From contig CATLBH010000010.1 in NCBI GenBank assembly GCA_949878745.1, positions 1 to 61,289 of the forward strand: a DNA stretch of 61,289 nt. Reading direction: 5' to 3'. Source of the stretch: an uncultured Ruminiclostridium sp. (GTDB lineage Bacteria; Bacillota; Clostridia; Oscillospirales; Ruminococcaceae). The position numbers were made by a program, and so were the translations under genes. Position 1 is the first letter of the stretch. Every line of letters begins with the position of its first letter. The notes under the pieces are model-generated. The model was given only the letters and a program-made list of their open reading frames with translations, was not told the DNA's origin and did no database searches. This document shows, one piece after another, positions 15,378-61,251 of this stretch.

Positions 15378-15698
15378 TAGATAATTTTTTAAGTTTTAAT
15401 ATGTTCAGATATGGACATTTTTTCTTCCTTAAAAATAAAATGTTGTTGCCATGAAAATTTTGGGGGTAAGATTGACAACAATTAGCAAAAAATATACTTA
15501 TTAAAGGACGGTGAGTATTCCGCCGGTTTGGCTTTTGGATTATCGAAGCTAAAGGAAAAACTACAAGAGCTACCTCACGGATACCGCCGTGTCCTTAAAA
15601 ATGGGCGACTTTAATACACACTCCGATTTTCTATTTTTCAAAAGAAAACGGCGATTTGAAATTTGATATTTCAAAACCGCCGTTAGGCTACTGGTTAT
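15378..15698. other. Gene-free stretch with a gene scrap and a hairpin
   Basis: No complete gene. Plus strand 15509-15610 keeps 33 open codons (YLLKDGEYSAGLAFGLSK and onward) between stops, with no start or SD: possibly a scrap of an old gene, family unrecognised. A 38-base hairpin at 15647-15684 (AACGGCG.../...CGCCGTT, followed on the minus strand by TTTTCTTTTG) looks like a minus-strand terminator with no gene left to serve. Confidence 0.4.
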
Positions 15699-15701
15699 TT
15701 A

Positions 15702-16016
15702 GAAACTGTTCCAATAGGAATGGTGTGCGGAATTTCTAGCAAATTTTGTTGATGACAAGGCAAAAATCCGCAGGCGGGCAGCTTACGCAATAAGCCCGTC
15801 AAAGATTTTTAACACACGATGTGTTATACCAATCCCTTTTTAAACTGACGTAATACCCACAGTTTAATACTAATCCAACAGTTTAAAGAGGGATTAGTAT
15901 TAGTCATTTGCCCATAGTCGGCGCAAGGATGCGCCGACTATGGGCAAATGACAAAACGCAAGTCAGCGGCAAAATATGCCGAAAAGACGTGCACCAATTC
16001 CTATTGGAACAGTTTC
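15702..16016. mobile_element. MITE-like element 1 with TTA target duplication and nested palindromes
   Basis: The ends are inverted: GAAACTGTTCCAATAGGAAT at 15702 and its complement ending at 16016. TTA flanks both sides (15699-15701 and 16017-16019). It has no coding capacity. The subterminal part GCAAATTTTGTTGATGACAAG and the right part CGGCAAAATATGCCG are shared with a 159-bp element at 49903-50061. The GAAACTG ends and 3-base TNA duplication fit the IS5 family (IS1031-like), whose transposase would act in trans. Extra palindromes at 15824-15952 make this copy longer. Confidence 0.8.
15824..15952. repeat. Two palindromes nested inside MITE 1
   Basis: Unit one (15824-15902) begins ATACCAATCCCTTTTTAAACT and ends AGTTTAAAGAGGGATTAGTAT with an internal duplicated fragment. 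Unit two (15903-15952) is a perfect 22-bp stem, starting GTCATTTGCCCATAGTCGG, with a 6-base loop. The GATTAGTAT end of unit one matches the end framework of the palindromes at 48881, 53663, 56348 and 58164. Confidence 0.75.
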
Positions 16017-18744: not shown

Positions 18745-18959
18745 GTATTTAAAGCACCTTGGGAAGACGCTGATATGGAAAATTTGAGCATAGATTCAAC
18801 ATCAATCAGGCTTCATCAAAGTGATAACGGGGGAAAACTCCGAGAAAAGCTGTAAGTTTGTCAAGAGGTGGCAGAACTGCAAAAATTAATGCTGTAGTAG
18901 ATGGGTTGGGAAACCCTGTAGAATTTTTGCTAAGTCGTGGAAACGAGCATGATTCAATA
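18745..18959 (+). pseudogene. IS5-family transposase remnant 1
   Basis: One frame reads VFKAPWEDADMENLSIDSTS then IRLHQ and stops; the -1 frame continues VSLSRGGRTAKINAVVDGLG and NPVEFLLSRGNEHDS. These are the typical DST and RGG..TKIHAVVD..GNP blocks of IS5/IS427-type transposases. The frame change occurs at an A-rich site (GAGAAAAG) where this group uses programmed -1 frameshifting. Both ends of the gene and the element ends are missing. Confidence 0.85.
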
Positions 18960-20141: not shown

Positions 20142-20149
20142 AAAAGACT

Positions 20150-20323
20150 TTGAGCATAGATTCAACATCAATCAGGGTTCATCAAAGTGCTAACGGGGGA
20201 CAACTCCGAAAAAAGCTGTAAGTTTGGCAAGAGGTGGCAAAACTGCAAAAATTCATGCTGTAGTAGATGGGTTGTGAAACCCTGTAAAATTTATGCTAAG
20301 TCGTGGAAATAAGCATAATTCAA
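20150..20323 (+). pseudogene. IS5-family transposase remnant 2
   Basis: About 85% identical to remnant 1 by eye. The first frame reads LSIDSTSIRVHQSANGGQLR then stops. The -1 frame reads AVSLARGGKTAKIHAVVDGL then meets TGA. Here the slip site is CGAAAAAAG, matching the A-AAA-AAG type used by IS427-group elements. Only the central part of the transposase survives. Confidence 0.85.
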
Positions 20324-43734: not shown

Positions 43735-43998
43735 AAGAAAAGCTATGAAGGAAAGAGTAGCCTTTGCGGAACAGCCAGAGAAGGAAGCGTTTGGTGGAAG
43801 CTTCCCATGGAAAGCGAGGGTGAAGACCGCTCCTGAGCCGCAGTGCCGAAGGTACAGTAAGCGCTGCCGTACTTCTGCGTTAAAGAATAGGATTTATTGG
43901 AATCCGACAAGTGAAAAATCAAGGTGGAACCGTGCATTTCATGATTAGTATGCACCCTTGACGATTGCAAAGCTGTGATCGTCAAGGGTGCTTTTCTT
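43735..43998 (+). promoter_or_regulatory. T-box riboswitch leader of thrS
   Basis: Stem I starts with GAAAGAGTAG (the AGTA bulge motif). The T-box sequence AAGGTGGAACCGTG is at 43921-43934. It is followed by a strong terminator, GCACCCTTGACGAT with its complement, at 43952-43992, and TTTT. A probable specifier ACC (Thr) lies at 43826-43828 after the GAAG of the specifier bulge; this codon choice is inferred. Uncharged tRNA-Thr would stabilise the antiterminator and turn thrS on. Confidence 0.95.
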
Positions 43999-48802: not shown

Positions 48803-48880
48803 TACTTTTAAAGTCGGTGTATGTTCAGCGCCGACTTATTTGTATACGATTATACTAATTCACAATTATTTACTTTTATG

Positions 48881-48990
48881 CTAATCTTTAATCATATTGT
48901 AGACGAAGTCGGAAATATGATTAAAGATTACACCCGAAACACTAATCTTTGGTCAACATTTTTTGTCTATAATCTGACCAAAGATTAGTA
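48881..48990. repeat. Paired-palindrome repeat, copy 1
   Basis: Hairpin A (48882-48930: TAATCTTTAATCATAT with its complement), spacer CACCCGAAACAC, hairpin B (48941-48990: ACTAATCTTTGGTCA, loop with TTTGTCTATAAT, then TGACCAAAGATTAGT). Nearly identical to 58164-58279. It sits between mreB and mreC, where it could also act as a transcript stabiliser or partial terminator. Confidence 0.9.
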
Positions 48991-49022
48991 CTACACTCTT
49001 CCGCCGCTTTTGAGGAGAACAT

Positions 49023-49886
49023 ATGAGAGAATTTTTTCATACGATAAAGTTTAAAATCCTTGTATGCATTTTTGCCCTTTTGCTCGGCTTTTTAATATAT
49101 GTGGCGATAGCCGCGGGAGCCTCTTCGCTGCCGAAGGCTTTTCTTGAAACCGTTTCCTCTCCCTTCGTTACTCTTTCCACCAACGTTACAAGCTGGATGG
49201 AAAGCACTATCGACAAATTTGTCAACGCCGATAAGTACAAACAGGAAAACGAGCTTTTAAGGGAACAGCTTTCGGAAATCTACAGCAACGTTCTTGACAA
49301 AGAGGCTCTTGAAAAGGAAAACCAGCAGCTTAAGGATATGCTTGAAATTACGGAAAATCACAAGGATTTCAAATGGAGCTCCCCCTGTTCCGTAACGGCG
49401 AGAAACTCCGCCGACATATCGGGAGGCTTTACCATAAACAGAGGCTCAAACGACGGTATTTCGCTTTACGACCCGGTGTTTACCAAAACCGGACTTGTGG
49501 GGTCGGTGAGCGAGGTGGCGCCTAACTACTCCATTGTTTCCACCGTCCTTTCCAACGATATAAACATAGGAGTGAGCGGCGTTGACAGCCACGCTCTCGG
49601 AATCATCGAAAACGATCTGGACAGCGCCTACACGGGACACTGTGTGATGAACTATACGGGAAGAGACAGCGGCATAGCCGTAAACGAGGTCATAGTAACG
49701 TCGGGAAGTTCTTTTTTCCCAAAAGATATGCTTTTGGGTACCGTCACAGATATAATGAACGACAGCAACGGCCTCTCGGTTCATGTGCAAATAAAGCCCT
49801 TTGTGGACGTGTTCAGCGTTTCGGAGGTTTTTGTGTTGGTGGACTTTGATGGAAAGGGCGAGGACACGGCAGGAAGAGCCGAATAA
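49023..49886 (+). CDS. mreC: Rod shape-determining protein MreC
   Basis: This 287-residue protein has one N-terminal membrane helix (KILVCIFALLLGFLIYVAI), a coiled coil (about 72-108, ENELLREQLSEIYSN), then the MreC beta-barrel core (about 120-275, ISLYDPVFTKTGLVGSV). It connects MreB and the elongation penicillin-binding protein across the membrane. Normal length. Confidence 0.95.
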   Translation: MREFFHTIKFKILVCIFALLLGFLIYVAIAAGASSLPKAFLETVSSPFVTLSTNVTSWMESTIDKFVNADKYKQENELLREQLSEIYSNVLDKEALEKENQQLKDMLEITENHKDFKWSSPCSVTARNSADISGGFTINRGSNDGISLYDPVFTKTGLVGSVSEVAPNYSIVSTVLSNDINIGVSGVDSHALGIIENDLDSAYTGHCVMNYTGRDSGIAVNEVIVTSGSSFFPKDMLLGTVTDIMNDSNGLSVHVQIKPFVDVFSVSEVFVLVDFDGKGEDTAGRAE

Positions 49887-49902
49887 ACATATTGACTATT
49901 TA

Positions 49903-50061
49903 GAACCTGTCTTCACAAGATTTGTGCGTGGATTTTCGAGCAAATTTTGTCGAGGACAAGGAAAAATTCCGCAGGATACTCGTGTATTTCAAGGAATTTT
50001 GACACAGTCATCGGCAAAATTTGCCCAAAGGACGCGTGTAATATCTTGTGAAGACAGGTTC
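49903..50061. mobile_element. MITE-like element 2 with TTA target duplication
   Basis: 159 bp, perfect terminal inverted repeats GAACCTGTCTTCACAAGAT at both ends, flanked by TTA (49900-49902 and 50062-50064). No coding capacity. Inner segments (GAGCAAATTTTGTCGAGGACA; TCATCGGCAAAATTTGCC) match MITE 1 at 15702. It sits between mreC and mreD and leaves 21 bases to the mreD start, so it supplies most of the gap. Confidence 0.88.
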
Positions 50062-50082
50062 TTACATTAAAAGGAAAAGCCG

Positions 50083-50763
50083 ATGCGTTACAAAATAAAT
50101 CCTAACGTCGCTTACACAAGGAAAATGAAAATCAAGGTTTTTTTTCGTTGGTTTTTTTATTCACTTTCCTTGGTATTATTATACTCCATAATGAGCTGCG
50201 GCGCCTTCGGGCTGTGGCAGCCTTATCTTATTTTTGCCTTAGCCATCGGTGTTTCAATGAGAGAGACGGAGTTTTCCTCTTCGATATTCGGAATTTTCTG
50301 CGGCTTTATGCTGGATATTTCCATGGATACGCTGTTCGGTTTTTTTGCGGTATGCATTATGCCATGCTGCTTCATAGCCTCTCTTTTATCCCACAATCTT
50401 ATTAAGGTTAATTTTTTGAATCATCTTATCTTTACCGGAGTTACAACGTTATTTTCTTTTTCCTTATATTATTTGTTCAATTATGTTATCTGGAACACCG
50501 AGAGAAGAGGGATAATTATTACGAGCATTTTGCTCCCCTCTTTTATCGCCACCCTCCTTACCGCGCCGCTGATGTTTTTCTTAACGAGATTTATCGCTTC
50601 AAAATTCGGACTCGAGGAAAACGAACAGCTTGACGAAGCGGTGGAGGAAGCGGTGGACAAGGCGGAGGAAAAACGCAGAAGCAAAAAGATTTTAAATATT
50701 AAAAACAATAAGTACATCAAAGAACTGGATAAGGAAACAAAGAGAAACAAGAACGACAATTAA
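50083..50763 (+). CDS. mreD: Rod shape-determining protein MreD
   Basis: This 226-residue membrane protein has five to six hydrophobic segments, with the MreD-type start (VFFRWFFYSLSLVLLYSI) and FGIFCGFMLDISMDTLFGFFA in the centre. The C-terminal 55 residues are a charged tail rich in Glu and Lys (DEAVEEAVDKAEEKRR), longer than in typical MreD of 160-180 residues. AAAAGGAAAAGCCG precedes ATG 50083 just past MITE 2. Confidence 0.88.
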   Translation: MRYKINPNVAYTRKMKIKVFFRWFFYSLSLVLLYSIMSCGAFGLWQPYLIFALAIGVSMRETEFSSSIFGIFCGFMLDISMDTLFGFFAVCIMPCCFIASLLSHNLIKVNFLNHLIFTGVTTLFSFSLYYLFNYVIWNTERRGIIITSILLPSFIATLLTAPLMFFLTRFIASKFGLEENEQLDEAVEEAVDKAEEKRRSKKILNIKNNKYIKELDKETKRNKNDN

Positions 50764-50809
50764 TCTAAAAAACGTAAATTGTATACCATTTTTAAGAAAG
50801 GAACCTTAA

Positions 50810-52903
50810 ATGAAGATCGGATATATTGTAAGAAGCCTGTTCTGGGTAATAATCGCCTTTGTTTTGGTTTTTCTGGCGGCGATCCGTCTTATGAGCATAC
50901 AGATAGTAAACGGCGACTATTACGCTTCACAGACGGAAAGCTTCCGAGAGGCGGATCAGTCCATTTCCGCGGCGAGAGGTCAGATATCCGACATTAACGG
51001 AAAGGTTATAGTCAGCAATGAAAGCGTCTTTAAGGTGATCCTTCAGGAAGCCTTTCTGACCTCCGGAAAAGAAAACGATACGATTGCCTCCACGGTGGCA
51101 ATTCTGAAAAAATGCGGAGAGAAATGGATAGACAACGTTCCCATAACCATGGAGGAGCCGTTTGTTTTTACCGACGTTTCCGAAGAAGCTTTGGATAAAT
51201 TCAGAACCAATCTGGGGCTGAATCTTGACGCAACCGTGGAAAACTGTCTTCGCGCATTGGCGGAGAATTATTCAATCGACACCGAAAAATACGACGCCAG
51301 AACGGTAAGACTCATCGGCGGGGTAAGATACGAAATGGAGCGAAAGGATTTTTCCTTCCGCAACAAGTATATACTCGCGGAGGACATTTCCCTGGAAACG
51401 GTGCTCCGCTTGAAGGAACAGGGCTTTATTCTCGCGGGAATCGATATCTCCGAGGAACCGAAGCGCATTTATATCAGAGGCGACATTGCTCCCCATGTAA
51501 TAGGAACCATAGATCCCATAACCGAAAAGGAATATGAGAGAAGCAAGGACGAGGACGGCAATACAAAGTACACCATTAACGACCTTATAGGAAAAACCGG
51601 CATAGAATACGGAATGGAAAGCGTTTTAAAAGGCACCGACGGCAACCGCACCATTGTCCGCAGCAGCAGCGGCGAGGTAGTATCCGATACGGTCACCGAA
51701 CCCGTACAGCCGGGCAGCAGTCTTAAACTCACCATAGACAGTGACTTTCAGGAGGATCTTCAGGCCATACTTGAAAATCAGATAAACTGGCTCCACTGGC
51801 TCAACGACCCCAAAAGAGGAAACGAGTGCGACGGAGGGGCGGTGGTGGTTCTCAACGCCAAAACGGGAGCCGTTCTGGGAATGGCCAGCTATCCCACCTA
51901 TAACCTTATCGACTACGCCAACAACCCCCTCGCGGTTTTAAACGGGGAAAACGGGGCTTCCATGTTCAACGCGGCGGTGGACGGACTTTTCCGCCCCGGC
52001 TCCGCTTTTAAAACGATAAACGCCACGGCGGGGCTTATCGAAGGCTATATAAACAAGGACACCCCCGGAATCTGCACAGGAAAATACACCTATTACAGCG
52101 ATTATCAACCCACCTGTACCGGTTCCCATTACGGCTATAACGTGGTGCAGTCCCTTAAGGTCTCCTGCAATATTTTCTTTTACGATCTGGCAAGGCGAAT
52201 GGGCATTGACACGCTGTCCTCCTATGCCGAAAGGTTCGGCTACGGCACCGATCTGGGGCTGGAGATACCCGCCGAGTCCGGACAGATGACCACCCCCTCA
52301 AGCTACGAAATCTCCACCAATCAGCCCTGGGACGTGGGACAGGTATTACAGGCGGGAATCGGACAGAGCGCTACGCAGGTCACCCCCCTTAATCTGGCGG
52401 TACAGGCGCTTACTCTCGCCAACAAAGGCATAAGATACAAGCCTTATCTTGTGGATTCCGTCTGGAACTACGATTATACCGAGCTTCTGTCGAAAACCGT
52501 CCCCGTCGTTGCACATCGGATAGACGACAAGGGCACCGACGCCTTTGAAACGGTAAAAGAGGGTATGATCGAGGTCAGCACCTGGTGCTATTGGCCCACC
52601 GGCGATCCCAGCAAATGGACCTTCGATTACCTTCCCTCTAAGGTCGCTATAAAAACAGGTACCGCTGAGATGGACTCGATAGGAAAATACTATACCTCCA
52701 CCGTAATGGGCTACTATCCCGCCGAGGATCCACAGATAGCCTTCGGAATAGTACTCAGCAAAGGTGAATATTCCAGATATATGATAAGGAATATTATTGA
52801 CTCGTATTTTTACGACTGCTACCAGCCCGATCTTGACGAAGAAGGCAATGTGGTTTCCCCCTGGAAGCGCTGGACGGTGACGGATAAGCCTACGGTACGA
52901 TGA
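50810..52903 (+). CDS. mrdA: Elongation-specific transpeptidase PBP2
   Basis: This 697-residue class B penicillin-binding protein has an N-terminal anchor (about 6-28), a dimerisation domain (about 50-240 with IDISEEPKRIYIRGDIAPHV), and a transpeptidase domain with active-site SAFK near 398 (RPGSAFKTINA), SxN motif SCN (KVSCNIFFYDLARR) and KTG (IKTGTAEMD) near 616. It cross-links lateral peptidoglycan with RodA and MreBCD; no rodA gene is in the window. The position after mreD and the 46-base gap fit one operon. Confidence 0.93.
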   Translation: MKIGYIVRSLFWVIIAFVLVFLAAIRLMSIQIVNGDYYASQTESFREADQSISAARGQISDINGKVIVSNESVFKVILQEAFLTSGKENDTIASTVAILKKCGEKWIDNVPITMEEPFVFTDVSEEALDKFRTNLGLNLDATVENCLRALAENYSIDTEKYDARTVRLIGGVRYEMERKDFSFRNKYILAEDISLETVLRLKEQGFILAGIDISEEPKRIYIRGDIAPHVIGTIDPITEKEYERSKDEDGNTKYTINDLIGKTGIEYGMESVLKGTDGNRTIVRSSSGEVVSDTVTEPVQPGSSLKLTIDSDFQEDLQAILENQINWLHWLNDPKRGNECDGGAVVVLNAKTGAVLGMASYPTYNLIDYANNPLAVLNGENGASMFNAAVDGLFRPGSAFKTINATAGLIEGYINKDTPGICTGKYTYYSDYQPTCTGSHYGYNVVQSLKVSCNIFFYDLARRMGIDTLSSYAERFGYGTDLGLEIPAESGQMTTPSSYEISTNQPWDVGQVLQAGIGQSATQVTPLNLAVQALTLANKGIRYKPYLVDSVWNYDYTELLSKTVPVVAHRIDDKGTDAFETVKEGMIEVSTWCYWPTGDPSKWTFDYLPSKVAIKTGTAEMDSIGKYYTSTVMGYYPAEDPQIAFGIVLSKGEYSRYMIRNIIDSYFYDCYQPDLDEEGNVVSPWKRWTVTDKPTVR

Positions 52904-53238
52904 AAAAAACTTTATTATTTGTGAAATATTTGTCATTTCATTATTAACGGCGCTCTTTTTTGTACAACTTATACAATTTTTTCTTCTTTTTAACAATAAA
53001 TATACCAAACTTTTTTTCAACCATACCAAACCCCTTTTCATTTTTAAAAATATATGCTATAATGTTATGGAAGCGTTATTTGCTTTAAAACAATTCAAAA
53101 ACCCGAGGCGCTGTCCTAATTTGATTTTTTGAAAAAGCAGCTGACAATAAACCAATGAATTCGTTTTCATAAAGGTTAAAAAGCATTAGGGCGTATATGA
53201 AGGCGTATTCCGAAAAAATAAAAAGGGAGGGTTTTCCA
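52904..53238. other. Intergenic stretch between PBP2 and mgsA
   Basis: Contains a probable mgsA promoter: TTTTCA (53035-53040), 17-base spacer, TATAAT (53058-53063). T-rich DNA after the PBP2 stop has no strong stem. No other gene seen. Confidence 0.5.
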
Positions 53239-53637
53239 ATGAACATTGCTTTAATAGCGCACGACTCCAAAAAAGAGCTTATGGTGCAGTTCTGCATAGC
53301 ATACTGCGGAATTTTAAGCAGACATGACCTTTGCGCCACCGGAACCACCGGAAAACTTGTTGCGGAAGCGACGGGTCTTCGTATCCAAAGATTCCTGAGC
53401 GGATCCCAGGGCGGAGATCAGCAGATATCTGCGCGTATTTCCTGCAATGAGATTGATATTCTGATTTTTTTCAGAGACCCCATTAACATAAACCATCGCG
53501 AGCCGAACGAATCTCATCTTCTCAGGCTTTGCGATGTTCACAATATACCTGTGGCCACAAATATGGCGACTGCCGAGGCGCTTATACACGCCCTTGAGCG
53601 CGGCGACCTTGATTGGCGGGAGATAGTAAGATACTGA
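53239..53637 (+). CDS. mgsA: Methylglyoxal synthase
   Basis: This 132-residue enzyme converts dihydroxyacetone phosphate to methylglyoxal and phosphate. Family marks: [40 protein letters not shown] and ILIFFRDPI with the catalytic Asp. ATG 53239 has AAAGGGAGGG upstream; the same frame stays open to an ATG at 53197 without SD, so the shorter start is chosen. It bypasses lower glycolysis when phosphate is limiting. Confidence 0.95.
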
Positions 53638-53662
53638 TACGGCTTTGTGTTTTACAGGGCTT

Positions 53663-53782
53663 TATACTAATTGCAATTAAATCTATAAACAAATAGATTT
53701 AATTGCAATTACACCCGAAGCACTATTTGCAAATCATTTCAAATTTCAATTTGTCTATAATATGATTTGCAAATAGTATTAG
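53663..53782. repeat. Paired-palindrome repeat, copy 2 (different arms)
   Basis: Hairpin A (53663-53711) uses arms CAATTAAATCTAT/ATAGATTTAATTG instead of those at 48881. Spacer ACACCCGAAGCACTA is conserved. Hairpin B (53722-53782) uses TTTGCAAATCAT/ATGATTTGCAAA. Loop TTTGTCTATAAT and end TAGTATTA are conserved. So the frame is the same while both stems are different but still complementary. Confidence 0.85.
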
Positions 53783-53789
53783 CGGCAAG

Positions 53790-53834
53790 CCTGTAAGAAA
53801 CCCCCGCGCCTTTTACAGGTGCGGGGTTAATTTA
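53790..53834 (+). terminator. Hairpin region before hisS with two alternative stems
   Basis: CCCCGC (53802-53807) pairs with GCGGGG (53821-53826), followed by TTAATTT, a weak terminator. An overlapping stem CCTGTAA (53790-53796) with TTACAGG (53813-53819) would exclude it. It may be a plain terminator for mgsA or an attenuator of hisS. Confidence 0.5.
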
Positions 53835-53872
53835 TATACCGGTAAAAAAGAGAACGGAAAGGAAAAGACAAA

Positions 53873-55156
53873 ATGGATATTGTTACAAGAGCGCCGAGAG
53901 GCACCGCAGATAAGCTGCCGTCTCAAATAAATAAATGGCACACCGTGGAAAAGGCTTCGGCGCGGATCGCGGAGACCTACGGCTGCAAGGAGCTGAGAAC
54001 CCCCACCTTTGAACACACCGAACTGTTTCAGAGGGGTGTGGGCGATACCACCGACGTTGTACAAAAGGAAATGTATACCTTTAACGATAAAAAAGGAAGA
54101 AGCATAACCCTTAAGCCCGAGGGCACCGCGGGAGCCGTGAGAGCCGCTCTGGAAAACGGTCTCCTGAACGAAGCCCTTCCCCTTAAGCTTTATTATCTTA
54201 CAAGCTGCTTCCGCTACGAAGCCCCCCAGAGCGGAAGATTAAGGGAATTCAAACAGTTCGGCGTGGAATATTTTGGCACGGATTCCCCCATAAGCGACGC
54301 GGAGCTTATCTGTATGGCGGACGGTATTTTCAAGTTTTTAAAGCTTGAAAACGTTCAGCTGGAAATAAACAGCATAGGCTGCCCGAAATGCAGAGCGGAG
54401 TATCAGAAGGCTTTAAGGGAGTATTACGGTCAGTATAAAGAACAGCTTTGCGATACCTGTAAGGAAAGGCTGGAAAAGAACCCCATGCGGCTTCTGGACT
54501 GCAAAAGCGAAATTTGTCACGGCTTCGCGGAAAAAGCGCCCGTTATTCTGGATTACCTTTGCGATGAGTGTAAGGAGCATTTTGACAGCGTCAGAAAATC
54601 CCTTGACGATATGAATATAAAATATGTTGTAAATCCCCGCATTGTGAGAGGGTTGGACTACTACACCAACACCGTATTTGAATTTATAAGCGATAACTGC
54701 GGCACTCAGGGTACTATCTGTGCCGGCGGAAGATATAACGGCCTTGTTGAGGAAATCGGCGGTAAATCCGTTCCGGGTCTTGGTTTTGCCATGGGGCTTG
54801 AACGGGTTATTATGGTAATGGACGCGCAAAACGCCGATTATGAGCCCGCGAAAAAGTGCGACTTGTTTATCGCGGGCACGGACGAGGCTTCCTCCCTGTA
54901 CGCCATGGGGCTTGTAAAACAGCTCAGGGATTACGGCTTCTGGGCGGAATGTGACATAGTGGGAAGAAGCCTGAAGGCTCAGATGAAATACGCCGATAAG
55001 CTGGGGGCAAATTTCAGTATGGTAATAGGCGAAAACGAAATGAAATCCGGAAAAGCGGAGCTAAAAAATATGAAAAGCGGCGAAAAGTCCGTTGTAAATA
55101 TCGGGGAGAATTTTACCGAGAGTATAAATTCTTTGCTGATGGATATAGATCTGTAA
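53873..55156 (+). CDS. hisS: Histidyl-tRNA synthetase
   Basis: This 427-residue class II synthetase has motif 1 around ETYGCKELRTPTFEHTELF, motif 2 CFRYEAPQSGRLREFKQFG, the HisA motif GLDYYTNTVFEF and motif 3 GLGFAMGLERVIM. The C-terminal anticodon domain covers about 335-427. GGAAAGGAAAAG precedes the ATG. No T-box motif is visible upstream. It is probably co-transcribed with the GH10 gene 60 bases later. Confidence 0.96.
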   Translation: MDIVTRAPRGTADKLPSQINKWHTVEKASARIAETYGCKELRTPTFEHTELFQRGVGDTTDVVQKEMYTFNDKKGRSITLKPEGTAGAVRAALENGLLNEALPLKLYYLTSCFRYEAPQSGRLREFKQFGVEYFGTDSPISDAELICMADGIFKFLKLENVQLEINSIGCPKCRAEYQKALREYYGQYKEQLCDTCKERLEKNPMRLLDCKSEICHGFAEKAPVILDYLCDECKEHFDSVRKSLDDMNIKYVVNPRIVRGLDYYTNTVFEFISDNCGTQGTICAGGRYNGLVEEIGGKSVPGLGFAMGLERVIMVMDAQNADYEPAKKCDLFIAGTDEASSLYAMGLVKQLRDYGFWAECDIVGRSLKAQMKYADKLGANFSMVIGENEMKSGKAELKNMKSGEKSVVNIGENFTESINSLLMDIDL

Positions 55157-55216
55157 ATCTCGACGTTATCCGTAACAAAGTGTGAAAACCGTTTAAAGAA
55201 AGGAAGGTTAAGCAAA

Positions 55217-56179
55217 ATGGAATTCAGTCTTAAGGAAATTTATAAGGATTATTTCAAAATAGGCGCGGCAATAAACACCGAAAGCGTAGATACCTGCAAG
55301 GACATTATTTTAAAGCACTTCAACAGTATCACCTGCGAAAACGCTATGAAATTCGCGGAAACCGAGCCGGAGGAAGGAAAATTCACTTTCGGGGACGCGG
55401 ACAAAATATACGGCTTCGCAAAGGAACACAATATCCCCGTAAGAGGTCACAACTTCGTGTGGCACCAGGCAATGCCCGACTGGATTTTTAAAAACACGGA
55501 TAGGGAGGGACTTCTGAAACGCCTTGAAAATCACATAAAAGCGCTTACCGAAAGATATCCCGACCTGTACTGCTGGGACTGTATAAACGAAGGAATTGAC
55601 GACGGACAGGGTTATTTAAGAAAGACCCCCTGGCTTGATATAATCGGTGAGGATTATTTTGATAAGGCATTTGACATTGCCGCAAAATATACGGATAAAT
55701 CCCTGTTTTACAACGATTACAACGAATTTGACCCTGAAAAAAGAAAAAAGATAATCCGAAAGGTAAAAGAAGTAACGGAAAAGGGTATCCGTATAGACGG
55801 TATCGGGCTTCAATGCCATCTGGGCTTTAACCTTAATTTTGATATCGACGAGATAAAGCGCGGAATAGAGGAATACGCAAAACTTGGCTATAAGCTTCAG
55901 GTAACCGAGCACGATATTTCCAACTACCCCTTCGAGGACAGGGAACTTCACCTTGCGCCCACCTTCGAGGAGTATAAAAGACAGACTAAGAGATTCAAGG
56001 AGTTTTTCTCGGTGCTCCGTACTTATAAAAACGAAATCGAATCCGTCACCTTCTGGGGCGTGGCGGACGACACGTCATGGCTCAATTACTTCCCGGTGAA
56101 GGGGAGGAAAAACGGCGGGCTGCTTTTTGATGAAAATCATGAGCCCAAAGAAGGATTTTACGCCATATGCGATTTTTGA
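55217..56179 (+). CDS. GH10 endo-beta-1,4-xylanase, cytoplasmic
   Basis: This 320-residue single catalytic domain (TIM barrel) has ENAMKFAETEPEEGKF, GHNFVWHQAMPDWI, the acid/base Glu125 in WDCINEGID and nucleophile Glu231 in QVTEHDIS. No signal peptide: the protein starts MEFSLKEIYKDYFKIGAAIN, directly with the first barrel strand region. A cytoplasmic GH10 normally cuts imported xylooligosaccharides. The distance to hisS (60 bases, with a good SD) suggests shared transcription. It precedes a GH26 gene. Confidence 0.94.
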   Translation: MEFSLKEIYKDYFKIGAAINTESVDTCKDIILKHFNSITCENAMKFAETEPEEGKFTFGDADKIYGFAKEHNIPVRGHNFVWHQAMPDWIFKNTDREGLLKRLENHIKALTERYPDLYCWDCINEGIDDGQGYLRKTPWLDIIGEDYFDKAFDIAAKYTDKSLFYNDYNEFDPEKRKKIIRKVKEVTEKGIRIDGIGLQCHLGFNLNFDIDEIKRGIEEYAKLGYKLQVTEHDISNYPFEDRELHLAPTFEEYKRQTKRFKEFFSVLRTYKNEIESVTFWGVADDTSWLNYFPVKGRKNGGLLFDENHEPKEGFYAICDF

Positions 56180-56217
56180 CCCGACGCAATGAAAAAACAT
56201 AACCCGCGGTAAAAGTT

Positions 56218-56400
56218 TAAAATACTTCCGATCAGACGGTATTCAAAAAAGAACGAGTCTGAAAGGAAGTATTTTAAGTATAATACCACTCCCCTTTTAA
56301 ACTTTGTATATTACGTAAGTTTAAAAGGGATTGATATAAGAGTCTAATACTAATCTTTGGTCAGATTATAGACAAAAAATGTTGACCAAAGATTAGTATA
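56218..56400. repeat. Three consecutive palindromes (compound copy 3, inverted unit)
   Basis: First: TAAAATACTTCC (56218-56229) with GGAAGTATTTTA (56265-56276) and an inner CAGAC/GTCTG. Second: TCCCCTTTTAAACTT (56290-56304) with TAAGTTTAAAAGGGA (56316-56330), the same stem type as in MITE 1. Third: TACTAATCTTTGGTCA (56348-56363) with TGACCAAAGATTAGTA (56383-56398), the reverse complement of hairpin B at 48941. It fills almost the whole gap between GH10 and GH26. Confidence 0.85.
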
Positions 56401-56474
56401 AAAACCGTCTTTGGTTTTTATCGGTTTTGAAAACAACTTTTTACAAATTTTCACACTGAAAGGCAAAATACAGT

Positions 56475-57608
56475 ATGTGCATATATGAAACAAATGTGAA
56501 CAGCCTTCTGAACAAACTTGAAAAAACGCCCCCCGACCCCAAAGTATTGGTTTCCAAAAACGCGGGAGAGAATTCCAAAAGGCTTTTTGAATATCTAAAA
56601 ACCATATACGGAAAAAACATACTGAGCGGACAGCAGTATTTACAGCCCGCCGAGCTTGAGGACGCGGTATATTACCGAATAACCGGACGGCTCCCGGCGG
56701 TAAGAGGCTACGATCTGTTGGATATGTGCAAAAATACGTCCGACAGTCAAACCGACCGCGCAATATACTGGGCGAAAAACAGCGGCTGTATAATAACGAT
56801 GTGCTGGCACTGGTACGCCCCCGACGACATAAGAAACCCTTCCGATTCGGTATGGTCCTTTTACTATAAAACCACGTACTATCAGCGAAAAACAAGCTTC
56901 GATATAGTAAAAGCGGTGAAAGAGGGTACCTTGGAGCACCGCTTTGCATTGGATCAGATAGACAAGGCCGCCGAAGAATTGAAGAAGCTTGAAGCGGAGG
57001 ATATTCCCGTGCTGTGGCGGCCACTGCACGAGGCGGACGGAAGCTGGTTTTGGTGGGGCAATCGAAAAAACGACGGCGGCGAATCTGCGGAAGCCTACAA
57101 AAAGCTTTGGTATATTATCTTTGACAGACTGGAAAACTATCATAGACTCAGTAATCTGATTTGGGTCTGGAACGGCCAGAGCCGCGCTATGGCGGTTCAC
57201 CCCAATACCTTTGACCTATGCGGGGAGGACGTTTATTCCGAAATCGCCCACGATCACTCCTCCCAAGAGGCTCGATATCTTGACGTTACCTCCTATACCT
57301 TCGGTAAAATGGCTGCATTGTCCGAGTGCGGCTATATACCCGATCCCGAAAATCTTAAAAAGGACGAAGTCAAATGGCTCTGGTGGCTCCCCTGGTGGGG
57401 CGGCTTCGTATATAAAACGGACGAGCAGTGGCGCCCGATTTTCGACGAAAAGGGGCTTCCGCTGCATAATCCCGATAAATTTTCCGAAAGAGAGCTAAAA
57501 GAGTATTTTGATAACGATTATTGTCTTACTCTGGACAAGCTGCCTTGGTACGGCGAAAAAAACGCGAAATTCGTCGGGGATATTATGAAGGAGAGATTTG
57601 GATTATGA
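56475..57608 (+). CDS. GH26 beta-mannanase-type enzyme, no signal peptide
   Basis: This 377-residue (beta/alpha)8 hydrolase has acid/base Glu186 in WRPLHEADGSWFWWG, nucleophile Glu284 in LSECGYIP, and substrate-site aromatics CWHWYAPDD and IWVWNGQ. GH26 enzymes are mostly endo-mannanases or mannobiosidases; a minority act on beta-1,3-xylan or mixed-linkage glucan. Without a signal peptide it should act on imported mannooligosaccharides in the cytosol. ATG 56475 has GAAAGG 11 bases upstream. It overlaps the DUF4358 gene by 4 bases. Confidence 0.92.
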   Translation: MCIYETNVNSLLNKLEKTPPDPKVLVSKNAGENSKRLFEYLKTIYGKNILSGQQYLQPAELEDAVYYRITGRLPAVRGYDLLDMCKNTSDSQTDRAIYWAKNSGCIITMCWHWYAPDDIRNPSDSVWSFYYKTTYYQRKTSFDIVKAVKEGTLEHRFALDQIDKAAEELKKLEAEDIPVLWRPLHEADGSWFWWGNRKNDGGESAEAYKKLWYIIFDRLENYHRLSNLIWVWNGQSRAMAVHPNTFDLCGEDVYSEIAHDHSSQEARYLDVTSYTFGKMAALSECGYIPDPENLKKDEVKWLWWLPWWGGFVYKTDEQWRPIFDEKGLPLHNPDKFSERELKEYFDNDYCLTLDKLPWYGEKNAKFVGDIMKERFGL

Positions 57609-58078
57609 AAAAAATAGCGGTTATTTTTGTATCGATCGTTTTGGCTTTTGTTGTTTCGTCTTGTTCTTCCGATGGCAAAAATATGAACAATACTGACGAA
57701 ACCGCCTCCGAGCTTTTAAATACGGTTTTAAACAGCATTGAGTTTCCGCCCACCGTTGAGGTAACGGAGGAAAGCGCTTTTGAGGAAATGGGGATAGATT
57801 TGTCAGTCGCGGAGGATTACGCTGCTGTAAAGCAAATGTTAAGTGTGGACGTGGTGGAGGTAATAATTTTAAAGGTGAAGGAGGGCGAAACGGAAAGCGC
57901 CTTGAAAAAACTGGAATCGAGAAAGGAATCCCTTATCAACGATTTCGCCTTTTACCCCGAACAGGTAGAGTCTGCCAACGCCACCAAGGTCGGAAGCGAA
58001 GGAAATGTTGTATACTTAATATGCCATGTGGACGCGGAGAAGGGCGAAGAGAGTTTATTAAAAAAAATAAACGGATAG
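57605..58078 (+). CDS. DUF4358-family lipoprotein
   Basis: This 157-residue protein has a lipoprotein signal ending VVSSC (Cys19), an acidic linker, then the DUF4358 core: VVEVIILKVKEGETESALKK, LESRKESLINDFAFYPEQVE and EGNVVYLICHVD. The family is common in Clostridia and has no known function. ATG at 57605 (GAAGGAGAG upstream) overlaps the GH26 stop, so the two are coupled. A strong terminator follows. Confidence 0.85.
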   Translation: MKKIAVIFVSIVLAFVVSSCSSDGKNMNNTDETASELLNTVLNSIEFPPTVEVTEESAFEEMGIDLSVAEDYAAVKQMLSVDVVEVIILKVKEGETESALKKLESRKESLINDFAFYPEQVESANATKVGSEGNVVYLICHVDAEKGEESLLKKING

Positions 58079-58112
58079 TTATTTTTTTATTATAATTTAC
58101 TCAACGTATTTT

Positions 58113-58160
58113 AAAATCCTTTAATTAAGAAGATTTTTTTCTTAATTAAAGGATTTTTTT
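58113..58160 (+). terminator. Intrinsic terminator after DUF4358 gene
   Basis: A perfect stem (AAAATCCTTTAATTAAGAA with its complement) followed by seven T. Confidence 0.9.
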
Positions 58161-58163
58161 GTC

Positions 58164-58279
58164 ATACTAATCTTTAATCATATTGTAGACAAAGTCGGAA
58201 ATATGATTAAAGATTACACCCGAAACACTAATCTTTGGTCAACATTTTTTTGTCTATAATCTGACCAAAGATTAGTATC
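58164..58279. repeat. Paired-palindrome repeat, copy 4
   Basis: Almost base for base the unit at 48881-48990: hairpin A (58165-58216), ACACCCGAAACAC, hairpin B (58226-58279). It differs by one G/A exchange in the hairpin A loop (GACAAAGTC for GACGAAGTC) and one extra T in the hairpin B loop. It lies directly before the TetR promoter. Confidence 0.9.
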
Positions 58280-58287
58280 ACACCCCC

Positions 58288-60806: not shown

Positions 60807-60900
60807 TATTTTTAAAAATATAGTGAAAACTTTTAGTTGTATTGAAGTGTTTTTATACTTTGGGTATTAAGATGGGGGTTATGCTTGCCGCAGGGTGGTG

Positions 60901-61251
60901 TTAACGTAAGAACTGCTTTCCGCGAGGGTGGGCGAAGGTTCTTATCGAAGGCTGATTCCTTTATGTGATGTTTTATTTAATGCACGGGCTGTGCAGGGGT
61001 GCTCCCGCGGGAGTGCGTTAACGTAAGAATTGCTTTCCGCAAGGGTGGGCGAAGGTTTTTATCGAAGGCCTATTCCTTTATGTGATGTTTTATTTAATGC
61101 ACGGGCTGTGCGGGGGGGCTCCCGCGGGAGTGCGTTAACGTAAGAATTGCTTTCCGCAAGGGGGGCGAAGGTTTTTATCGAAGGCCTATTCCTTTATGTG
61201 ATGTTTTATTTAATGCACGGGCCGTGCAGGGCCGCTCCCGCGGGGGGCTTA
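60901..61251. repeat. 117-bp tandem repeat, three copies
   Basis: Units start with TTAACGTAAGAA at 60901, 61018 and 61135, exactly 117 bases apart. They share CTTTCCGC, GGGCGAAGGT, ATCGAAGGC and TATGTGATGTTTTATTTAAT. Each unit ends with two small dyads, GCACGGGCTGTGC and CTCCCGCGGGAG. The third unit decays at about 61250. 117 is divisible by 3, but the longest frame (37 codons per unit) ends in TAA at each junction and has no start, so coding is unlikely. Confidence 0.85.

Follow-up and report, generated by a model that had tools for sequence, protein, structure and literature searches.

REP, BIME and REPIN elements are dispersed intergenic palindromes that often occur in pairs. They are mobilised by a Y1 transposase and, to our knowledge, make no target duplication. 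Insertion sequences of the IS630 family duplicate TA, not TNA; a TNA duplication is typical of the IS1031 group of the IS5 family. Two further systems are close to the elements described here. In the available portions of two publications, RUP is presented as a 107 bp intergenic repeat with about 110 copies and IS630-like ends, for which mobilisation by IS630-Spn1 was proposed and which was reported to insert into insertion sequence genes (PMC3049150, PMC2229807). RUP has a 9-bp inverted repeat and uses TA target sites (available portion of PMC2229807). According to the same portion, CIR elements of Caulobacter and Brucella, which were singled out for their shape, consist of two long-hairpin arms and a linker and carry a GANTC motif, and their target duplication and mobility are given as uncertain (PMC2229807). 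Here, we analyse a family of double-hairpin elements found in contig CATLBH010000010.1 of an uncultured Ruminiclostridium sp. (assembly GCA_949878745.1). The whole stretch of 61,289 nucleotides is called the window below.

These elements are repeated, insert at TNA and duplicate TNA, and lie mostly outside genes. Judged from sequence comparisons, they are probably miniature inverted-repeat transposable elements (MITEs) that are, or lately were, moved in trans by transposases of the IS630 family. An IS630 subgroup in the genus and in the order has the same end design, and its whole copies have the same TNA duplication. No description of the frame was found in the literature searched, from which subscription papers were largely absent.

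Anatomy, arms and distribution of the double-hairpin elements

Each copy has the frame TACYAWT–hairpin 1–CACCC(G/A)AA(A/G)CAC–hairpin 2–AWTAGTA. The detailed order is TACYAWT, arm, loop, inverted arm, ATTR, the linker CACCC(G/A)AA(A/G)CAC, TAWT, arm, loop, inverted arm and AWTAGTA. A catalogue of 109 full copies was drawn from the host genome and related genomes. It left out 34 linker matches too close to contig ends as well as 25 of 134 accepted places at which a single hairpin was recognised. Full copies are 78-130 bp long with peaks at 92 and 111-113 bp. The linker CACCC(G/A/T)AA(A/G)CAC is present in 105 of them, whereby the scan itself required a near-consensus linker.

A preliminary description of the window had listed three intergenic copies with a shared frame, and this frame is confirmed. 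With up to three mismatches allowed, the central 18-mer has three matches in the window, all of them exact, far above 100 shuffles (mean 0.05, maximum 1). Two hairpins fold in each copy with DNA z-scores of -9.1, -11.3 and -8.1, and none of 200 shuffles per copy was as good. The right end, which had been given as ATTAGTA or TAGTATTA, proved to be the element end AWTAGTA plus the flanking duplication. The window alone contains two arm sets, as the copies at 48879 and 58165 belong to the same family, whereas the arms of the copy at 53665 differ and yet pair. Three more copies that were absent from the first list, two single-hairpin relatives and one 73-bp form, were found in the window (Table 1).

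In the host genome (G000), the linker has 166 matches with at most two mismatches (91 forward, 75 reverse), compared to 0 and 1 for the reversed-pattern control. Linker plus right end occurs 101 times there and is present in 8 of 71 genomes of the genus, the host included. It is also found, among the matches listed, in metagenome bins of Oscillospiraceae and Clostridia, and records labelled Bacteroides carry the same kind of element (L134; again among the matches listed). A match in Cellulophaga looks like chance, and viral contigs yielded no match to linker plus right end. In genome G016, a contig end is about 50 bases away from many of the copies listed. Such repeats break the assembly, so that copy numbers are probably underestimates; family G, whose copies are mostly near contig ends, is under-counted in particular. 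In 837,170 bases in which genes were called by a simple longest-ORF (open reading frame) rule, 49 of 49 full copies have less than half of their length in predicted genes, at a coding fraction of 0.813 by the same rule. Unusual forms were observed as well. One element (L031, around position 1500, minus strand) comprises three hairpin segments and two linkers, an arrangement that a duplication of hairpin 2 would produce. Genome G017 is without the double-hairpin frame and is the source of a 102-bp MITE (L232, L255) that consists of a single long hairpin without linker; its ends are of the same kind, and its flanks are TNA.

Among the 109 full copies, 24 combinations of outer variable blocks occur, or about 15 by our reading of the table if variants seen only once in the two commonest families are not counted. 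Arm families were defined by block counts; single-linkage clustering had merged families. Taking one representative per combination, the arms of hairpin 1 agree at 0.88-1.0 in each of 16 columns, whereas arms across different combinations agree only at 0.37-0.48 in columns 5-10. For hairpin 2, the agreement is 0.83-1.0 in columns 1-7 and declines further inward. The two outer arms of an element constitute the terminal inverted repeats expected of a MITE; they share TACYA and agree at 0.75-0.88 in columns 5-7, compared to 0.40-0.48 across families. Since the block representatives are related, these contrasts are descriptive. The agreement of both the outer arms and the hairpins indicates that one short block, present up to four times per element, changes as a set. 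Hairpins 1 and 2 are partly independent: a single hairpin 2 type occurs with several hairpin 1 types, and one element (L146) combines a C-like hairpin 1 with a B-type hairpin 2 and has no matching duplication. The preliminary description had held that the arms differ together with pairing preserved, and that non-complementary arms or unrelated terminators among genome-wide copies would speak against it. Genome-wide and across species, the frame proved to be fixed and the arms to change in complementary pairs, so that the description withstood this test.

Insertion at TNA and IS630-family transposases as candidate drivers

In 95 of 109 full copies, the same three bases flank the element on both sides (TTA 61, TAA 23, TCA 10, TGA 1); when one side was shuffled (5000 trials), 48 copies agreed on average and never more than 63. 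In 102 copies, TNA is found on both sides, and 95 of these agree (shuffled mean 47.6, maximum 65). Queries made of the joined flanks of matching-flank copies (at most 95) returned a match across the junction for 20 copies, some of them weak or from the copy's own surroundings, and 11 empty sites were aligned for seven of the 20. Five of the seven copies (15, 36, 50, 67 and 100) have a single TNA at the insertion point of an empty site; for copy 36, TTA replaces TCA at one of two sites. Copy 3 shows one changed base of the triplet at both empty sites, and copy 22 a one-base gap next to the triplet. By locus origin, the comparison is between G016 and G001 for copy 67 and between the host genome and G016 for copy 15, and the remaining aligned copies are repeats within the host genome. 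In addition, as read by eye, one family A hairpin is interrupted by a family B element that has a TTA duplication (L017). The TNA duplication and the empty sites identify these sequences as mobile non-autonomous elements and not as terminators, and set them apart from REP and BIME elements. In size (below 200 bp), in being non-coding and in their many dispersed copies, they also correspond to MITEs.

A profile search with PF13358 led to IS630-type genes in the genus, among them a subgroup with matching ends. As required of the autonomous partner of an IS630-derived element, the subgroup transposase matches NCBIfam NF033545 (IS630, E 2e-37) and Pfam DDE_3 (E 4e-23), and it has winged-helix domains. 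A protein search of the 71 genomes of the genus yielded 14 matches in eight genomes at 12 places. The six best places (E 2.8e-12 or better; G001, G017:C101, G094:C137, two in G012, G087) all have such an end near the gene. Among 394 genomes of the order, six contain a match with E at most 1e-20, and each of the six places has at least one such end. The ends are composed of TA(C/T)TA plus two bases, a variable block of about 5 nt and an A/T-rich stretch, which in several cases ends in TAGACAA. The subgroup ends and the element arms vary in the same 5-nt block. Four whole insertion sequences were delimited (Table 1), and a single end was placed in each of L298, L299 and L302.

In G001, the end TACTAATTGAATATCAAAATATAGACAA is located immediately upstream of an IS630 gene that is interrupted by a TCA-flanked family G element (L275). 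Beyond TACTA, this end equals the family G arms at 17 of 21 positions (shuffled 99th percentile 14). The ends of G087 and G012 have 18 and 16 matches to a linker-less MITE of G027 and 17 and 15 matches to the family G arm (99th percentile 13). Compared with 16 hand-chosen MITE ends, two of them from linker-less MITEs, six of ten insertion sequence ends exceed the shuffled 99th percentile (G001, both G017, G012, G087 and one G312). This means, ends that match those of an autonomous element, as known from MITEs, are provided by the IS630 subgroup of other species. Some IS630 genes are split into a helix-turn-helix and a DDE frame with an overlap of a few dozen bases (L283, 3-548/512-1054; L281, 697-1230/1185-1532), and possibly, these are cases of programmed frameshifting.

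A number of observations speak against IS630 transposases as drivers. Six weaker places in the genus (E 4.9e-9 to 9e-4; G016, G094:C218, G065, G070, G017:C76, G017:C71) are without such ends, which slightly lowers our confidence, and the same holds true for a complete IS630 gene of G017 (L273). The G094 end and both G412 ends do not exceed the shuffled 99th percentile, and the other G312 end only equals it. The subgroup copies seen in the genus are either broken or interrupted, by a contig end or by a MITE. No subgroup member was detected in the host genome, which was searched with its 19 shortest contigs read as N, although family A has spread there; its driver enzyme may have been lost, may be encoded on a contig outside the searched sequence or may be of another type. 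The sole complete IS630 gene seen in this genome has the ends TATTGTT/TATTGAT and unlike flanks, TAA and TCA. The fixed 12-nt linker has no account in the MITE/IS630 scheme. The stem of hairpin 2 in family B comprises only about 9 bp, which indicates that a long second hairpin is not required. Finally, the TA duplication of IS630-derived elements is not found: both the MITEs and four of four whole insertion sequences have TNA. The elements are, therefore, best filed as a variant among IS630-derived elements.

The TNA triplet could instead point to another transposase with this preference, e.g. an IS5 member of the IS1031 type, in which case the likeness to IS630 would reflect convergence on A/T-rich ends. 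The TNA habit of that group and the presence of six PF01609 matches in the host genome, where the IS630 subgroup has no member, agree with this. However, none of ten PF01609 loci examined has an end pair around the gene (L152 was read), while such ends are present in the closest IS630 relatives and the same duplication in four of four whole copies, so that we regard an IS5-type driver as improbable. PF01609, PF13359, PF00665, PF13340 and PF05598 were all rejected as drivers: among the examined loci, no end pair surrounds the gene, and single small copies lie near some. PF13359 matched a single gene, which PF01609 had matched as well. When ends spaced up to 5000 bases apart were scanned for pairs, seven pairs of more than 500 bases were listed. 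A 2.6-kb pair in L133 turned out to be two separate small copies, and a 2.4-kb pair in L177 holds partial copies and ordinary genes. Ends without hairpin or linker, judged on the first 60 bases only, were found in 12 of 373 cases, and none led to an autonomous copy.

Pairing of the arms and competing explanations

If the elements are moved by IS630 transposases, the enzyme would bind the arm, the variable block would belong to the sequence that it recognises, and the various arm sets would mirror different transposase specificities. A full element contains the block four times, as two inverted copies per hairpin, of which only the outermost end in TAC/GTA and the inner ones run into the linker. 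Complementarity may be kept in the spreading lineage because transposition uses both arms of a hairpin; template switching during replication, by which one arm of a palindrome is copied onto the other, perhaps helps. After insertion, copies decay. IS630-like ends carried in duplicate would explain why the arms change in matching pairs.

Covariation was tested by cross-family counts and by counts relative to the consensus of each family. In family A (31 copies), 35 changes are one-sided, 27 pair-breaking and 8 G-U, and four are two-sided, three of which are one shared Watson-Crick change. In family B (49 copies), 46 one-sided changes are accompanied by 32 two-sided ones, 31 of them Watson-Crick. 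Many of the latter mark subfamilies (one type is found in 14 copies, another one in seven). Family E (11 copies) has 23 one-sided and 20 two-sided changes, and all 20 are Watson-Crick. An anchored count of hairpin 1 in a slightly wider B set (51 copies) gave 36 two-sided changes, 35 of them Watson-Crick. Paired changes of hairpin 1 confined to single copies occur in L036, L050 and L136, and in L160 together with one further difference. Family A has spread recently with mostly one-sided changes, which indicates that the structure is not enforced in single copies. Pairing seems to belong to the mobile lineage rather than to each copy. Recent copies decay mostly without repair and older divergence is paired; both selection on the lineage and slow template switching fit this pattern. 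The preliminary description had proposed that either selection acts on the structure or the arms are rewritten by a gene-conversion or replication mechanism. The paired changes in families B and E agree with this proposal, while the unconstrained copies of family A do not.

Template switching alone might keep the hairpins paired without any structural selection. This alternative concerns the pairing only and is compatible with MITEs, and template switching has been described as a source of paired changes in the available portion of PMC8794818. The nearly exclusive Watson-Crick nature of two-sided changes in families B and E argues for it, as does the observation that some paired changes are found in a single copy and in hairpin 1 only, with hairpin 2 retaining the family sequence (L050, L136). 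By contrast, the ratio of one-sided to two-sided changes in family A indicates that any in-place correction is slow, and the two-sided changes of family B, being mostly subfamily marks, fit inheritance in a mobile lineage equally well. Furthermore, in hairpin 1 of family B the inner arms change more often than the outer ones (19 vs 6, p 0.015), as would be expected if the outer end were under selection. In family A, however, the order is reversed (6 inner vs 9 outer), and the pooled counts (25 vs 15, p 0.15) are not significant. On balance, we lean against template switching as the only cause, but consider it a serious contender.

A function of the hairpins as host RNA, in termination, mRNA stability or regulation, would also call for preserved pairing. 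The intergenic location of all 49 mapped copies and a mild enrichment between convergent genes (14 of 49 vs 73 of 461 gaps, p 0.043; genes were called by a crude rule) are in line with it, but surviving insertions of any mobile element would be intergenic, too. The loss of pairing in family A copies, the patchy presence in 8 of 71 genomes of the genus, the absence of any Rfam family at gathering score on the window copies and the target duplications and empty sites, which signify insertion, render such a function quite unlikely. Intrinsic terminators were discarded, too: in the three window copies, the hairpins as read from the sequence are AT-rich, and after hairpin 2 come GTA and the flank instead of a T run. 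For a REP/BIME/REPIN-type system with a Y1 tyrosine transposase, as hinted at in the preliminary description, speaks that paired hairpins with a short linker resemble a BIME. The 3-bp TNA duplications, the empty sites and the ends shared with IS630 elements of the DDE type contradict it, and on these grounds we rate this system as very improbable, although no search for Y1 genes was made.

Within the IS630 reading, a more far-reaching scenario can be drawn up, which we put forward tentatively and think rather unlikely as a whole. The linker and the TAC/GTA ends would be a chassis, on which the IS630-recognition arms have been replaced many times, following changes in the specificity of IS630 transposases, as a four-copy code that is copied by template switching; the elements, parasites of parasites, would in this way keep track of their enzymes, and the driving subgroup would have moved from a TA to a TNA target. 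If such arm-swapping occurs, the elements record the transposase specificities met by their lineage and offer a natural test of template switching versus selection in keeping hairpins paired. The TNA duplication, if confirmed, would mark an unusual IS630 subgroup. With duplicated transposon ends, a puzzling covariation would receive an ordinary cause, and compensatory change alone is no proof of a functional RNA.

Features of the window and comparison with known systems

Table 1. Double-hairpin elements and their relatives in the window, and whole insertion sequences of the IS630 subgroup from other loci
Feature	Position in window	Strand	Length	Flanking triplets	Remarks
Double-hairpin element, family A	48879..48990	+			left-end TAC is TGC here; folded
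Linker CACCCGAAACAC of the copy at 48879	48931..48942	+
Flanks of the copy at 48879	left 48876..48878, right 48991-48993	+		TTA/CTA	taken as decayed duplication
Double-hairpin element, family D	53665..53778	+			arms GCAATTAAATCTAT and TTTGCAAATCAT; folded
Linker CACCCGAAGCAC of the copy at 53665	53712..53723	+
Target duplication of the copy at 53665	left 53662..53664, right 53779-53781	+		TTA/TTA	L019
Double-hairpin element, family A	58165..58277	+			folded
Linker CACCCGAAACAC of the copy at 58165	58217..58228	+
Target duplication of the copy at 58165	left 58162..58164, right 58278-58280	+		TCA/TCA	element 19, L020
Single-hairpin relative	56348..56398	+		TAA/TAA	family A hairpin 2 alone
Single-hairpin relative, family B type	56284..56336	+		TAA/TAA	right end TGATA, hence weaker call; read by eye
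Family B relative	15827..15899	+	73 bp	TTA/TTA
Whole insertion sequence L297			1117 bp	TAA/TAA
Whole insertion sequence L300			1104 bp	TTA/TTA
Whole insertion sequence L301			1116 bp	TTA/TTA
Whole insertion sequence L281 (G017)			1113 bp	TTA/TTA	ends TACTA and TATTA

The window contains additional repeats. An unrelated 86-nt repeat resembling TAGAACCTGT is located at 15689-15774 and 49890-49975 (77% alike), and stretches similar to it adjoin several double-hairpin copies elsewhere in the genome. A 175-nt direct repeat is found at 18783-18957 and 20149-20323 (93% alike, 1366 bases apart), and a 117-nt unit is present in three tandem copies (100, 90 and 74%) at 60888-61237, at the contig end. 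A T-box leader (Rfam RF00230, 98.4 bits) at 43736-43962 lies directly upstream of a 609-aa frame; it was the sole match of an Rfam scan of the window.

Compared to the known systems, the elements differ from REP, BIME and REPIN elements by their target duplication. In shape, they are closest to CIR: the folding of the three window copies yields two arms plus a linker. An exchange of arms is not described for CIR in the available portion of PMC2229807. With the IS630 insertion sequences they share the ends, and the transposase of the matching subgroup is of the IS630 type (NF033545, DDE_3); the TNA target instead of TA, and a double hairpin that was not seen at the insertion sequence ends, set them apart. 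RUP with IS630-Spn1 is the closest known pair, and the reported insertion of RUP into insertion sequence genes has a parallel in the IS630 gene of L275, which is interrupted by a family G copy. As far as the available portions of the RUP publications go, the elements described here differ from RUP in their two separate hairpins with a fixed linker, in the many arm sets and in the duplication of TNA in place of a TA target site.

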